IMG/VR virus record: IMGVR_UViG_3300001473_000098
Location: 1-51,664 of that record
DNA length: 51,664 nucleotides
Reading direction: 5' to 3' (one strand)
Source: a virus
The notes beneath the pieces were generated by a model, which was given only the letters and a program-made list of their open reading frames with translations, was not told the origin of the DNA and searched no databases. Position 1 is the stretch's first letter, and every line of letters begins with the position of its first letter. The position numbers and the translations under genes are program-made. Shown here one piece after another: positions 6,114 through 42,632 of the stretch.

Positions 6114-6385
6114 CACACCTGTTTCGCCTGCATAGCGTTCAAGGCCATGTTTTCCTTGAATTCGCGGTAGGGCGCGATTTCCTCGCGCAATTCGTCGATC
6201 TCGCGCCGCATAGCCCGCAGTTCGGCGCCATAAAGACGCGGCGCGATCCACTTGAAGGCAACGAACGCGCCGGTCAGAAAACCAAGACCGAACAATCCAC
6301 CGGACGGCCCCAAAAACAGCTCCACAAATCTCCCCGCATCCATGCGCGCCGCCTCCTTAGCCCCGATGTCATCGCGAATGGACAT
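6113..6385 (-). CDS. small membrane protein with coiled coil (90 aa)
   Basis: A hydrophobic segment lies at about residues 28-48 (GPSGGLFGLGFLTGAFVAF), followed by a heptad-rich helix (RAMRREIDELREEIAPYREF). The start 6385 has AAAGGA upstream. The layout (one membrane helix plus coiled coil) resembles inner spanins and also anti-holin-like proteins, and it is located just upstream of the lysis genes. It overlaps the PAS gene by one ATGA unit, so their products are translationally coupled. Function unknown. Confidence 0.55.
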   Translation of the reverse strand: MSIRDDIGAKEAARMDAGRFVELFLGPSGGLFGLGFLTGAFVAFKWIAPRLYGAELRAMRREIDELREEIAPYREFKENMALNAMQAKQV

Positions 6386-28003: not shown

Positions 28004-28035
28004 GTTTCCCATTTCCGCCTGCTAGAACCGCCGAT

Positions 28036-28304
28036 GTCCAACCTGTCCAACCTTGTCCAACCTTGAAAATCAAAGGTAGGACACATATTCCTCAACGCTT
28101 TCAAACGCTTGCAACCAAAGTCCAACCTGTCCGACCTTTCAGCGCCAAAACGAACAGGGCTGGAGGGGTCAATCGCCTTTCGCGCCCGCGTGCGCACGGA
28201 CCACCCGAAAAAGGTTGGACAGGTTGGACAGGTAGGCCAAACCTTTGAAACCAAACGCTTTAATCCCGTCCAACCTCTTATCACCTGTCCAACCTAGGTA
28301 GGAC
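28036..28304. repeat. iteron array: 12 copies of GTCCAACCT (candidate origin)
   Basis: The gap between the Q-position gene and the helicase gene contains 9-bp units in both orientations: forward at 28036, 28045, 28055, 28120, 28129, 28268 and 28287; inverted at 28074, 28212, 28221, 28230 and 28296. Most are exact; four carry one change and 28230 carries two. Units come in tandem groups with 9- or 10-bp periodicity, and GTCCAACCT/AGGTAGGAC meet head to head at 28287-28304. CAAACGCTT occurs twice between groups (28102, 28252). The layout resembles iterons of an initiator-bound origin. No gene is seen in this 298-bp stretch. Confidence 0.7.
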
Positions 28305-28310
28305 AAAACG

Positions 28311-38451: not shown

Positions 38452-39500
38452 GTCCGGCCTCCTTCGGATCCAGGCCCCGGTTCGCTGCCCGGGGCTGCGC
38501 CGCCTTCTCCGGCTTGATTCCCCCACACATCCCAGCCCGGCCGCTTGCCGCGCGCGAAGCCCTCGACCAGGGGCAGGCCCTGATAGACATGGGCGATATA
38601 GTCGTAGATCTGGTCGGGCTTTTCGGAGTGCTTACCGCGCCGGCAGTTCCAGACCGACGGATGGCGCTGGCCTTCGGGCGGGCAGCCGACCTTTTCGCCC
38701 TTGCGCCCGATCAAAAGCAGCTCATGGGTCTTGCGCCCCCAGTACCCGCTGCCGATCTGGTCCGGGTGATACCAGACCCAATGCGAGACGTAGCGATAGC
38801 CCCAGAAGGTCGGGCATTTGATCTGGCGATCGAGCAGCGGCATCGTCGCCCAAAGGAACAGAATGCTGTCGTCCAGCATCATGTCGGGGATCGGCATGGC
38901 CATGATTTCTTCCGGCGTTGCCGTCGGATAATGGTTGTCCGCCGATTTCAGCATGCCCTTTTCGGATCGGGCTTCCGTCTTCCAATGCGGATCGAAGGCG
39001 CCGACCGCATATTTCTTCTGTCCGATTTCCTCCAGGGCGCGCTCGGAATCCGCAGCAAGCCCGGCATGCAGCGCCGTTCGCTTAACCAGCTTGACATGGC
39101 TTTTGATGTCGTTGTGCGACATGCCGGGATGGATCACCTGATCCCGGATCAATTGTTGCGCGTCATCGGCCGGCAATCGCGCAACGTCGTACATGGTCGT
39201 CAGAGACGGCGGGAAAACAGTCAGATCTGACTGATTTGCAATCACGTCCGACGCGGCGATCTTCATGTATTTCCGCGCCATTTCCGGCGAAAATGGAAGG
39301 TCGGCTTCAATCATGGCGGTGAATTCGCCATGCCCCAGCTTGCTCTTGGCCGCGATCAGCGTCGCGCCGGCATCGACGATCGCCTGGACGGCCTTGCGGG
39401 CATGATTGCCGATAGCTCGAGCGAAGTCGGCGCGGGTCTCGAGATGCGCAAAGGATTGCACCTCGCGCCCCTCGCCTTCGATGATCAGTCCGCCACTCAT
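38448..39500 (-). CDS. DUF3102-like N-terminal domain plus MT-A70 DNA methyltransferase
   Basis: Residues 30-80 match DUF3102 (KAVQAIVDAGATLIAAKSKL, MARKYMKIAAS), a phage DNA-binding helical domain. The C-terminal half resembles MT-A70 adenine-N6 methyltransferases, with ILFLWATMPLLDRQIKCPTF, WVWYHPDQIGSGYWGRKTHE, LLLIGRKG and WDVWGNQ. The catalytic DPPW motif reads DPHW (residues 170-173), so activity needs testing. Start 39500 overlaps the DnaA-domain gene as ATGA. It would modify adenines to evade host restriction. It contains palindrome copy 2 in its coding sequence. Confidence 0.85.
   Translation of the reverse strand: MSGGLIIEGEGREVQSFAHLETRADFARAIGNHARKAVQAIVDAGATLIAAKSKLGHGEFTAMIEADLPFSPEMARKYMKIAASDVIANQSDLTVFPPSLTTMYDVARLPADDAQQLIRDQVIHPGMSHNDIKSHVKLVKRTALHAGLAADSERALEEIGQKKYAVGAFDPHWKTEARSEKGMLKSADNHYPTATPEEIMAMPIPDMMLDDSILFLWATMPLLDRQIKCPTFWGYRYVSHWVWYHPDQIGSGYWGRKTHELLLIGRKGEKVGCPPEGQRHPSVWNCRRGKHSEKPDQIYDYIAHVYQGLPLVEGFARGKRPGWDVWGNQAGEGGAAPGSEPGPGSEGGRT
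39218..39233. promoter_or_regulatory. palindromic operator CAGTCAGATCTGACTG, copy 2 (inside MT-A70 gene)
   Basis: An exact match to the 27241 copy, also flanked one base away by AAA and TTT, sits inside the MT-A70 gene where it encodes N-Q-S-D-L-T. Being embedded in coding sequence, its exact retention suggests selection for the DNA site. Confidence 0.6.
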
Positions 39501-39964
39501 GGCGTCACCGCCGGCGCATCCGCCCGTTGCGGCCACGATCCGCGCACCCGGTCCACCTTCCAGAACGACCCGTCAAACCGGCTGCCCGATCGCGCCGCGT
39601 GGACCTTCGCGCCGTGGATCACCGCCGAATTGTCGCGATTGACGATGCGCCCGACCTGCTCCGACGACAGTTTTGTTTCCGTCAACAGCCGAAAGCAAAG
39701 ATGATGCCGCGGCGCGGTCAGGTAGTTCGACCGTCTCGGACTTTGAATCTCGGAAAGCGTCAGATTGTATTGATCCAGGACCTGACGGACGATAGCCCGG
39801 ACCGGGATCGGGACACCGCCAGACTGGCGCACCAAGTAAATTCTGTAGGCCCGCAACGGCATTGGCAAGTGGTGCTGGATGTCGGCCCAGCGCAGCCGGC
39901 CGTTGACCAGGTTGACAATCGCAGCGCGATCCTTGGCGGCGGACGTTGCTTCAACCGTGTGCAT
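39497..39964 (-). CDS. DnaA domain IV-like protein
   Basis: The C-terminal 60 residues (SNYLTAPRHHLCFRLLTETK, then LSSEQVGRIVNRDNSAVIHG) match the DnaA DNA-binding domain, which reads GR.FGGRDHTTVLH in the bacterial protein. AAGGAG precedes ATG 39964. There is no AAA+ domain, so it is a DNA-binding-only version (155 aa). It may bind DnaA-box-like or phage-specific sites to help start replication. It lies between the ParB-like and MT-A70 genes. Confidence 0.82.
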   Translation of the reverse strand: MHTVEATSAAKDRAAIVNLVNGRLRWADIQHHLPMPLRAYRIYLVRQSGGVPIPVRAIVRQVLDQYNLTLSEIQSPRRSNYLTAPRHHLCFRLLTETKLSSEQVGRIVNRDNSAVIHGAKVHAARSGSRFDGSFWKVDRVRGSWPQRADAPAVTP

Positions 39965-39968
39965 CGCC

Positions 39969-40751
39969 CTACTCCTTGTCGCGGACATAAAGCCCGCTGG
40001 TCGGATATTTGACGGTGTAGACATTCGAAATCGCGACGCGCATGGCCATGGCCGGCGTGTCGCCGCCAAGCCGGATCCTGTTCGCCGCGGCGAGCATTTC
40101 CGCCGCGGTCTGCGCCCCAAGCGCCCGCGCGACCTTTTCGACCTGGGCCGATGGGTTGCGATGAAACAGAAAGGCCAGCGCCAGGATCATGTTTGCCCGC
40201 AGCACGCGGCGGACGTCCGGCCAGGCCTTGCGCAGGGCCTTCAGGGCCTTTGTGGTGTTGGCATAGCCATATTCGTTCAAGGCCCTGTGCACCGCGGCAA
40301 TCGCCATGGTTTCGCGCGGCGCCGATGATCCAATCCCGCAATCGGCCGCTTCCAGAAGCCCGTTGATCCGAAGCGCGGTCGGGTCGCCGGCGGTCACAAG
40401 CGCATGATGCTTTTCAACCAGGGTCACCGCCCTGCGGTCGGAATTGATGCCGACAAAGGCCGCGGCTTCATCCTCGATCGACGCGAACGTGAAGATAACG
40501 GTCGGCGCGCCATAGACTTGCGGATGCCGGCGTGCGGCCTCGCGCCGGTGCTGCCCTTCGACCACGGCGAACCGGCCGCGCGGACGCCTGGCAAGGGTCA
40601 GCGAGCCGAACTTTTCCCAGCGGAAATCATCGACGATCGCCTGAACAAGCGCTTCGTTCAGCGGCCGCTGATAGAGCGGGTCGACATCGATCAGATCGAC
40701 ATTGACGAAGTCGGTTTGCGGCGGCGTACCGATCGAATTGCGAGACGTCAT
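39969..40751 (-). CDS. ParB/Srx-nuclease-domain protein (DUF6551-like)
   Basis: The product has VDLIDVDPLYQRPLNEALVQ then FGSLTLARRPRGRFAVVEGQ and HRREAARR, the ParB N-terminal-domain pattern (VEGQHR in place of the usual DGxHR). The rest is helical. ParB-like phage proteins are DNA-binding or nucleases. Start 40751 comes from ATG after GGGAGGATGTTTGCGCC. It lies in the early leftward operon between the small membrane gene and the DnaA-like gene. Function in partition or replication is unclear. Confidence 0.8.
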   Translation of the reverse strand: MTSRNSIGTPPQTDFVNVDLIDVDPLYQRPLNEALVQAIVDDFRWEKFGSLTLARRPRGRFAVVEGQHRREAARRHPQVYGAPTVIFTFASIEDEAAAFVGINSDRRAVTLVEKHHALVTAGDPTALRINGLLEAADCGIGSSAPRETMAIAAVHRALNEYGYANTTKALKALRKAWPDVRRVLRANMILALAFLFHRNPSAQVEKVARALGAQTAAEMLAAANRIRLGGDTPAMAMRVAISNVYTVKYPTSGLYVRDKE

Positions 40752-40891: not shown

Positions 40892-41062
40892 TTAAGGCGG
40901 CAGATTCTTGATCCATTCATCGAGCGCCCGTTTCAGGCGCTTGACCGGCCAGGCCGGGACAAACCAGATTTTGAGAATGAGCCCCAGCAGGACCGACAGG
41001 CCCCGGGCCAGGTGTTCGACGACGAACAGGATCACGGTCAGGACGATATGCCTTTGTTTCAT
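40892..41062 (-). CDS. small membrane protein (56 aa)
   Basis: Start 41062 overlaps the upstream stop as ATGA. The peptide is mostly two hydrophobic helices (IVLTVILFVVEHLARGLSVL then LGLILKIWFVPAW) with a basic C terminus (KRLKRALDEWIKNLPP). A hairpin CTGCCGC/GCGGCAG lies across its stop. It could be a superinfection-exclusion or toxin-like small protein, or a neutral membrane peptide; none can be chosen. Confidence 0.5.
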   Translation of the reverse strand: MKQRHIVLTVILFVVEHLARGLSVLLGLILKIWFVPAWPVKRLKRALDEWIKNLPP

Positions 41063-41358
41063 TCCCGCCATCCCATGATCTTTTGTGCTTTCAGATCTTC
41101 CATCCGGCGATCCAGTTCGGCGTTTTTCGCCGCGACCGCTTCGTCGTTCAGCCAGTCCGGACAATTGACCAGGGCGGCGGCCAAAAGCGGCGCGCGATAG
41201 ACAATATAGAGGCGCACCATGTTGATGCCGCTCGGTTCGGACGGGTTCGCGGACAGCCAGCGTTCCACGGTTTTGACCGGCACCCCGGTCTGACCGGAGA
41301 CACATTCGGCGGTTTTCAGCGGATGCCGGTCTGTCAGAAACCGGCGCAGGCCCTGCAT
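41059..41358 (-). CDS. small HTH regulator (99 aa)
   Basis: I took ATG 41358 because it lies just downstream of the operator triad; longer readings place the operators inside the gene. The protein contains VSGQTGVPVKTVERWLSANP, a clear helix-turn-helix, then VRLYIVYRAPLLAAALVNCP and a helical, Glu/Lys-rich C terminus. It could be a second lysogeny or early regulator that binds the CCCGCAT sites upstream of itself. It is part of the leftward operon. Confidence 0.65.
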   Translation of the reverse strand: MQGLRRFLTDRHPLKTAECVSGQTGVPVKTVERWLSANPSEPSGINMVRLYIVYRAPLLAAALVNCPDWLNDEAVAAKNAELDRRMEDLKAQKIMGWRE

Positions 41359-41370
41359 ATCCAGCGCGAT

Positions 41371-41429
41371 CCCGCATGCATGAGGAATTTTCCCGCATCC
41401 ATGCGGGTAAGTTCCCCCATACATGCGGG
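41371..41429. promoter_or_regulatory. operator triad: three phased CCCGCAT..ATGCGGG palindromes
   Basis: Site 1 41371-41386 (right arm degenerate), site 2 41392-41407 (perfect arms CCCGCAT and ATGCGGG around 2 bp), site 3 41414-41429 (one left-arm change). Centres are 21 and 22 bp apart, about two helical turns, all upstream of the HTH gene at 41358. This is the classic three-operator layout of a phage repressor. Confidence 0.68.
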
Positions 41430-41611
41430 AAGCTGTCGTGCGACATTCGAGATCGTCGAACAAAAGGACCCCGCTCATGACAGCACACCATGACATACAG
41501 CACCGCTTTCGCCTTTCAGTCTTGCCGCTCTGGCTGCGGTGGCTCCTGCAAACGCCGGAACCCAGCCCATCAGGCCCGCCGGTCGGCGCGGTCTGTTGAT
41601 CCGGGCGCAGC

Positions 41612-41833
41612 TCATGACTTTCCCCCCGCCGAAGCAAAAGCGGGCCGGACCTCATAGGCCCGGCCCAAGTCGGACGCAGACGCGTCCTGGGAGGAACGAA
41701 ACAGGGTGGCTTGTTGACCGAAGGAACACGATGTCGCCAGGAGGCCCAGACCAAGGACTGTCACCAGCACGAAGGTCAGTGCCGTCGGGATTGTTGCGGT
41801 CGGAGCGGAGGGCTGGAATGGATGGCGGGTCAT
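41612..41833 (-). CDS. small membrane or lipoprotein (73 aa)
   Basis: The start 41833 overlaps the Cro-like gene's stop as ATGA. A hydrophobic segment (TALTFVLVTVLGLGLLATSC) ends in Cys, so it may be a membrane anchor or an atypical lipobox. The remaining 40 residues are polar (QATLFRSSQDASASDLGRAY). It is the first gene behind Cro in the leftward unit. Function unknown; phages often encode small exclusion proteins at this position. Confidence 0.5.
   Translation of the reverse strand: MTRHPFQPSAPTATIPTALTFVLVTVLGLGLLATSCSFGQQATLFRSSQDASASDLGRAYEVRPAFASAGGKS
41631..41667 (-). terminator. candidate intrinsic terminator at the end of the small membrane gene
   Basis: On the minus strand GGGCCGG (41666-41660), an 11-nt loop and CCGGCCC (41648-41642) form a 7-bp all-GC stem, followed by GCTTTTGC. 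It overlaps the gene's 3' end and would stop the cro transcript unless antiterminated. Confidence 0.4.
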
Positions 41834-42054
41834 TCGGCGGCCTCCGAAATTGGTTTTTTAAGTTCCGGCAAATCAACGAAATCATTTGGCGTAACTTGAC
41901 CGCCCGTCTCGACATAAATCTGCCGAAGCTGCGAACGGCGCGGCATGCGATGGCCGCGACGCCATTTCCAGACGGCCTCAACAGACACGGAAAAACGCTC
42001 CGCGAGGTTCGCGTTGCTCAAATTTTCCAAATCTTTCCATTCATCCAAGGTCAT
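41830..42054 (-). CDS. Cro-like HTH repressor
   Basis: The protein contains NLSNANLAERFSVSVEAVWK and RRGHRMPRRSQLRQIYVETG, a classical Cro/C1-type helix-turn-helix with WKWRRG following the recognition helix. I selected ATG 42054 (74 aa); ATG 42072 lies inside the palindromic operator and would leave almost no leader. It is divergent from the repressor gene at 42150, the phage lysogeny switch. It would lower early transcription or shut off the repressor. Confidence 0.75.
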   Translation of the reverse strand: MTLDEWKDLENLSNANLAERFSVSVEAVWKWRRGHRMPRRSQLRQIYVETGGQVTPNDFVDLPELKKPISEAAE

Positions 42055-42058
42055 AAAT

Positions 42059-42078
42059 CCAAAAATGTACATTTTGGG
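42059..42078. promoter_or_regulatory. palindromic operator at the cro start (CC.AAAATGTACATTTT.GG)
   Basis: A 14-bp perfect palindrome AAAATGTACATTTT with CC and GG arms one base further out lies in the cro/repressor intergenic region. A leftward -35-like TTGACG (42089-42084) is next to it. The right half recurs at 44414-44426 (12 of 13 bases). It is the likely site for the Cro or repressor dimer. Confidence 0.62.
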
Positions 42079-42149
42079 CGTTTCGTCAACCCATTTTTTG
42101 GGGTCGCCCGTTCCAATCCGATATGGGTGGCGACATCAGGAAGCAAAAA

Positions 42150-42632
42150 ATGCACTATCTGGACATGAAAGAAACAGACAATAAGGCGACCCACCGGTTG
42201 CGCGAACTCCGGGAATCCCGCGGCTTTTCACAAGAAAAGGCGGGCGAGTTATTCGGCATGTCCACAAGCGGCTATCAAAAAATCGAACAGGGCAGCCGCG
42301 GCCTGAAGGCGAATGTGATCGCTAAAGCCTGCGAGATCTACGGTGTGGATGAAGGCGCCGTGCTCGGCAGCAGCAACCCGAGGCTGTACTCGGTTGTGTC
42401 GAATCCAACTAAAAATTTTGCGTTGCAATTAAATCGCGAACTGCTAACGTCCATAATTGTAAAGGTCGACGAGGTTAGGAAGTTGAGAAAAGTCGCCCTA
42501 GGCGGCAAAGAACCGGAACAATATGCGGAATTTGTTGCTGATCTTTACGAACTCGCAATGAGTAAAGGCGGCGATTTTGAGACGATTTCCTACTTCTTTG
42601 ACTTGGCGTCGTATGAGGAAGACAAAAAATAA
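42150..42632 (+). CDS. HTH_3 repressor (CI-like)
   Basis: ATG 42150 follows AGGAAGCAAAAA. The N-terminal domain (HRLRELRESRGFSQEKAGEL then FGMSTSGYQKIEQGSRG) is a classical helix-turn-helix. The C-terminal 90 residues (ALQLNRELLTSIIVKVDEVR..) are helical with no LexA/CI-type protease Ser-Lys pair, so self-cleavage by RecA is not expected. It is divergent from the Cro-like gene, so it is the candidate lysogeny repressor; the shorter start at 42165 is possible. Confidence 0.8.
   Translation: MHYLDMKETDNKATHRLRELRESRGFSQEKAGELFGMSTSGYQKIEQGSRGLKANVIAKACEIYGVDEGAVLGSSNPRLYSVVSNPTKNFALQLNRELLTSIIVKVDEVRKLRKVALGGKEPEQYAEFVADLYELAMSKGGDFETISYFFDLASYEEDKK

Follow-up and report, generated by a model that had tools for sequence, protein, structure and literature searches.

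Three 16-bp palindromes of the form CCCGCA-N4-TGCGGG lie in what is most simply read as the 5' coding part of a small regulator gene of a phage. The DNA analysed, called the window here, is the whole of a virus sequence of 51,664 nucleotides (IMG/VR record IMGVR_UViG_3300001473_000098, positions 1 to 51,664). We rate it somewhat above an even chance that these three sites act as cooperative operators inside the gene, where they would be read by the gene's own XRE-fold product and limit further transcription.

The palindromes and the gene around them

The start-to-start spacing of the three sites is 21 and 22 bp (Table 1), and their places and spacings are reproduced as the original prediction gave them. 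S3 falls in another coding phase than S1 and S2. The degenerate half-site of S1, CCTCA, is seen again in a relative (L141). The window contains four matches to CCCGCA-N4-TGCGGG with up to one mismatch, where 0.45 would be expected; no shuffled version out of 100 contained as many as four. A blind search for any perfect 6+6 palindrome that is accompanied by two near copies within 50 bp finds a comparable triple in 2.8% of 1500 Markov-simulated windows. Judged from the window alone, the triad is only moderately unusual; it is secure because it is conserved in relatives. An isolated copy in the lysis region, CCCGCATCCATGCGCG, overlaps a possible start codon and is either a chance occurrence or a second target.

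Table 1. Features of the window and their coordinates
Feature	Position	Strand	Sequence	Remarks
Site S1	41371-41386		CCCGCATGCATGAGGA	Two arm mismatches; gene-strand reading TCCTCATGCATGCGGG
Site S2	41392-41407		CCCGCATCCATGCGGG	Perfect CCCGCA-N4-TGCGGG
Site S3	41414-41429		CCCCCATACATGCGGG	One mismatch; gene-strand reading CCCGCATGTATGGGGG; first in the direction of transcription
Regulator gene	41059-41478	-		139 aa with the proposed ATG at 41478; residues 1-35 predicted disordered; residues 41-138 five predicted helices with an XRE-like helix-turn-helix
Helix-turn-helix core	41059-41358	-		Gene boundaries of the original prediction (ATG 41358)
Small ORF	41475-41615	-		ATGA overlap with the regulator ATG
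Small ORF	41612-41833	-		ATGA overlap with cro
Cro-like repressor	41830-42072	-		phrog_35, E 1e-7; carph-isopro domain match weak, under its cut-off
CI-like repressor	42123-42632	+		HTH_31/HTH_3
Palindrome between cro and cI	42059-42078		CCAAAAATGTACATTTTGGG	Motif differs from the triad; probable CI/Cro operator
Repeat array	28035-28305		AGGTTGGACA	11 copies (<=1 mismatch), both orientations, 270 bp
Isolated palindrome	6333-6348		CCCGCATCCATGCGCG	One mismatch; near the endolysin gene
Small protein with DnaA C-terminal DNA-binding domain	39497-40120	-		PF08299, E 2e-10; after a ParB-like gene

The helix-turn-helix gene had been predicted to start at 41358, with the palindromes upstream of it. 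Both statements have to be revised. The reading frame stays open upstream of ATG 41358, and ATGA start-stop overlaps chain cro, the two small ORFs that follow it, and ATG 41478. In homologues, the ORF runs through the sites or through the place where the sites would be, and in one of them (L026) a clear ribosome-binding sequence precedes the start that lies ahead of the sites. The lengths of homologues also match a product of 139 aa: L026, L141, and L143 have 132, 131, and 132 aa with the starts used here, and L142 has 130 aa as annotated. Proteins like that of Sinorhizobium phage PBC5 are longer (about 200-215 aa). Because of the chain of overlaps and the homologues that read through the sites, translation in the window most simply begins at 41478, which is where we infer the exact start. 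The palindromes therefore lie in the gene, within its first ~40 codons, as they do in all relatives.

Two small ORFs separate cro from the regulator gene in the window. The one next to the regulator encodes MGWVPAFAGATAARAA, a peptide of the kind typically seen when REP-like repeats of alphaproteobacteria are translated. Downstream, on the same strand, a small protein with a DnaA-type DNA-binding domain follows a ParB-like gene.

The window protein has no significant match in Pfam, PHROGs, or NCBIfam. AlphaFold predicts a disordered leader followed by a confident five-helix core with a helix-turn-helix (pLDDT 91). The top fold matches are XRE and phage repressors, including structures of phage 186 regulators (one of them presumably 186 CII); all are weak (E >= 0.1). 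These weak matches suggest a Cro/CI-type (XRE) helix-turn-helix fold. A PDB search by sequence with the regulator gave nothing useful, nor did single-protein scans aimed at close relatives of its gene.

Conservation of the site and selection on the DNA

Homologues of the regulator are found in Sinorhizobium phage PBC5 (35%), Agrobacterium phage Atu_ph08 (30%), and many rhizobial prophages. Where the neighbourhood was examined, they follow a Cro-like or small gene that is divergent from a repressor. In PBC5, Atu_ph08, and other phages and prophages, CCCGCA-N4-TGCGGG or a degenerate form of it is present within the homologous ORF. In PBC5-like loci the palindrome is mostly perfect and stands at -130 from the VENWL codons (-127 and -124 in two loci). 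A CCGCA half-site is found exactly 22 bp (+22) from the main site in 7 of 12 divergent PBC5-like loci, where the encoded residues differ. In L026 and L141, which are more distant, the site is present twice with a spacing of 22 bp. The main site is degraded in four loci (L033, L046, L050, and L051), and there a copy that is perfect or nearly so stands about 220 bp farther upstream, in a different reading phase. In L047, L048, and L052 the sites are all degenerate. The motif is confined essentially to one locus per genome, and it is absent from the 8.8 kb read of a phage that has the window's ParB gene and lacks the helix-turn-helix gene.

The association of operator-like phased palindromes with a small helix-turn-helix gene is thus borne out, in that the motif is conserved where the gene occurs. 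Of the triad itself, which had been expected to recur in related phages, the site is kept with the gene; the triple copy is special to the window phage, and relatives bear one or two strong sites. Scans of plasmids and a scan with a stricter tandem pattern led nowhere. One match to the tandem motif (L017) has no visible helix-turn-helix partner and is taken as chance, and a literature search on the palindrome motif found nothing useful. In the deposited circular record of Atu_ph08 (NC_070876.1), position 1 is the first base of the palindrome. A gene for a DUF2312 (GapR-like) protein follows the pair of cro and helix-turn-helix genes in L142 (3012-3254) and L143 (3278-3748), where it is annotated, and is recognised by sequence likeness in L005 (7143-7544) and L026 (around 1030).

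In one reading frame, the palindrome CCGCA-N4-TGCGG and the peptide P-Q/H-x-C-G imply each other. A purely peptide-level origin of the palindrome is nevertheless rejected on three grounds. Sites are found in all three reading phases; those in other phases are S3 of the window, the first site of L026 and of L141, and the upstream sites about 220 bp away. The cysteine is replaced by tyrosine or arginine in some phages, in which most of the arms are kept. And the proline and cysteine codons never vary synonymously: in 20 sequences proline is encoded by CCG without exception (179 pairs, 0 synonymous differences) and cysteine always by TGC (78 pairs, again 0), against a mean synonymous difference of 0.48 in other columns. 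Moreover, at arm positions 2-6 of 25 sites, all seven changes are one-sided and break the pair, none is compensated, and the loop varies freely. Because of the three phases, the invariant codons, and the uncompensated arm changes, selection is seen to act on the DNA and to be sequence-specific.

PBC5-like loci have another conserved stretch upstream in the same ORF (e.g., at about 2880-2950 of L028). It is a block of GGCCATGATCG-N9-TGTCCGCA-N9-24-CCTGATTGCCC with almost no synonymous change, and it would represent a second nucleic-acid element. The conserved ATGA of these loci might have marked the end of a small upstream gene; this reading was rejected, since the alternative frame is not consistently open.

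The probable reader of the sites and alternative roles

The distant homologue L143, from Bradyrhizobium phage ppBeUSDA76-1, suggests a link between protein and site. The CCCGCA site is absent from its gene. At the corresponding place it carries CCGGCCAGCTGGCCGG and CCGGCCAGTTGGCCGG, which are 22 bp apart and in differing coding phases, so that the palindrome CCGGCC-N4-GGCCGG is present twice. Its recognition helix is RHCERCL, as against S/T-V/A-E-R/N-W-L in the CCCGCA group. The same architecture with both site and helix changed is what would be expected if the sites are read by the product of the gene that carries them, the coupling of specificity coming from this one homologue. No palindrome was found in the homologue L142.

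It is highly improbable that the triad is read by some other protein, whether from the host or another regulator of the phage. The same palindrome is present in unrelated genes with an HTH_36 domain, which places the motif outside this regulator family as well. But in each phage genome it accompanies the helix-turn-helix gene, at what is essentially a single locus, and it is missing near the ParB gene of the phage that lacks this gene. Nor does the triad resemble the palindrome between cI and cro of the window, CCAAAAATGTACATTTTGGG, which is a different motif. As an operator of CI or Cro, the triad is rejected on both motif and place. Nearly as improbable is a role as RNA hairpins of the early transcript, controlling translation of the regulator or antitermination. 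The triad segment does fold much more stably than its shuffled versions (-48.9 kcal/mol, z -6.8), with S3 pairing with S1 around S2. But it is the sequence of the arms that is kept and not their pairing, and an Rfam search gave no credible family. Because the inner-arm changes are one-sided and break pairing, a sequence-reading protein is favoured over an RNA helix. The possibility that the sites are iterons of a replication origin, bound by an initiator as in lambda O, is given little more weight. In lambda, too, the O iterons are found within the initiator gene, spaced 20-24 bp, and HTH_36 genes, which look like those of phage replication initiators, carry the same palindrome in the gene at a spacing of 22-23 bp. 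However, no AT-rich stretch (50-bp bins) is found beside the sites in the 15 loci profiled, and many relatives have a single strong site. The regulator also has no initiator domain and has another fold. PBC5 has a separate primosomal/DnaD-like gene. Genes for a primase and a helicase are present in the window itself, and the array of AGGTTGGACA adjoining the primase/helicase-like gene is a far better candidate for the phage's replication origin. The triad is rejected as the origin, both for its lack of AT-rich DNA and in view of the array at 28 kb.

A CII-like role, in which the regulator bound at its in-gene sites would activate an antisense promoter back over cro into cI, is unlikely, though it deserves more attention than the preceding alternatives. 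Lambda CII acts at PRE, inside the start of cII, and binds direct repeats. Like lambda CII and 186 CII, the protein is a helix-turn-helix regulator of similar size encoded after cro, which is the position of cII in lambda, and it has a C-terminal helix. It lies directly after cro, with a divergent cI, in PBC5, L142, and L143, and by likeness in Atu_ph08 and L026. An antisense promoter at the sites would fire toward cI, and phage 186 regulators are among the weak fold matches. Lambda CII sites, too, are near the start of their own gene. Against this reading, the CII family is absent from the Pfam and PHROGs matches of the window protein and from the Pfam matches of 18 homologues, and the sites here are palindromic and not direct repeats. 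Inspection by eye finds no conserved -10-like sequence on the antisense strand beside the proximal site, and a consensus scan of 41000-42200 finds no sigma-70-type promoter. A second control circuit, separate from the lysogeny switch, had been suggested; because the gene stands at the cII position after cro, the circuit of the regulator could instead feed into that switch.

The HTH_36 (PF13730) phage genes were surveyed in viral contigs L018-L025, L027, and L058-L137. They contain 20 sites of CCGCA-N4-TGCGG, in 13 of 67 distinct loci, with none in 150 kb outside the genes. All of these sites are 286-499 bp past the start of the domain match, just after the helix-turn-helix domain, and where tandem they are mostly 22-23 bp apart. 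Some have AT-rich DNA alongside, which is found at none of the small helix-turn-helix loci profiled; because of this, in-gene origins fit the HTH_36 sites. They are possibly in-gene origins or operators.

Proposed in-gene autoregulation and its meaning

The preferred reading remains that of operators within the regulator's own gene. The early transcript would yield the XRE-fold regulator with its disordered leader. Dimers of the regulator would then bind the 16-bp palindromes cooperatively, two helical turns apart, in the 5' part of their own coding sequence. There they would most likely act as a block, either to elongating RNA polymerase or to an internal promoter, so that the regulator gene and the early operon that follows it are transcribed less. 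We infer that the regulator binds these sites, that it does so as cooperative dimers, and that the regulation is negative. Looping of the DNA between the proximal site and the distal one was considered and rejected, as the distances between them (about 190 to 225 bp) do not keep a constant helical phase.

Two known systems are useful for comparison. Like OR1-OR3 of lambda, the triad consists of three phased palindromic sites (start spacing of 23 and 24 bp in lambda, 21 and 22 bp here). The lambda operators, however, are intergenic between the divergent cI and cro, whereas the triad is about 400 bp past the end of cro, within a third gene, and its motif is unlike the CI/Cro palindrome. Closer in placement is C.Kpn2I, a small controller regulator which binds within its own coding region, two dimers per site, and acts as a transcription elongation roadblock that stalls RNA polymerase (PMC6237814). 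C.Kpn2I belongs to a restriction-modification system and its site has no clear paired inverted repeats (PMC6237814), whereas here two or three clear palindromes are found in a phage early operon; the likeness is one of sequence anatomy only. In that anatomy, the conserved palindromes lie inside the open frame of the regulator's own coding region. By analogy with C.Kpn2I, the regulation is probably negative feedback.

Autoregulatory operators are of a known kind; here they would lie inside coding sequence, in a family that has neither name nor assigned function. More broadly, and tentatively, the gene may represent a family of early regulators, so far nameless, that phages encode at the cII position, with tandem 16-bp operators 22 bp apart in their own coding sequence and a palindrome that co-evolves with the recognition helix, the unrelated HTH_36 initiators having reached the same in-gene palindrome. 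If this is true, a common unannotated gene of rhizobial temperate phages would gain a function, and the DNA target of its product would have been predicted from sequence alone. It would also be a clear natural case of operators within coding sequence, paid for in synonymous freedom. As the spacing is shared by two different palindromes, this family may be used to test the joint change of recognition helix and operator.
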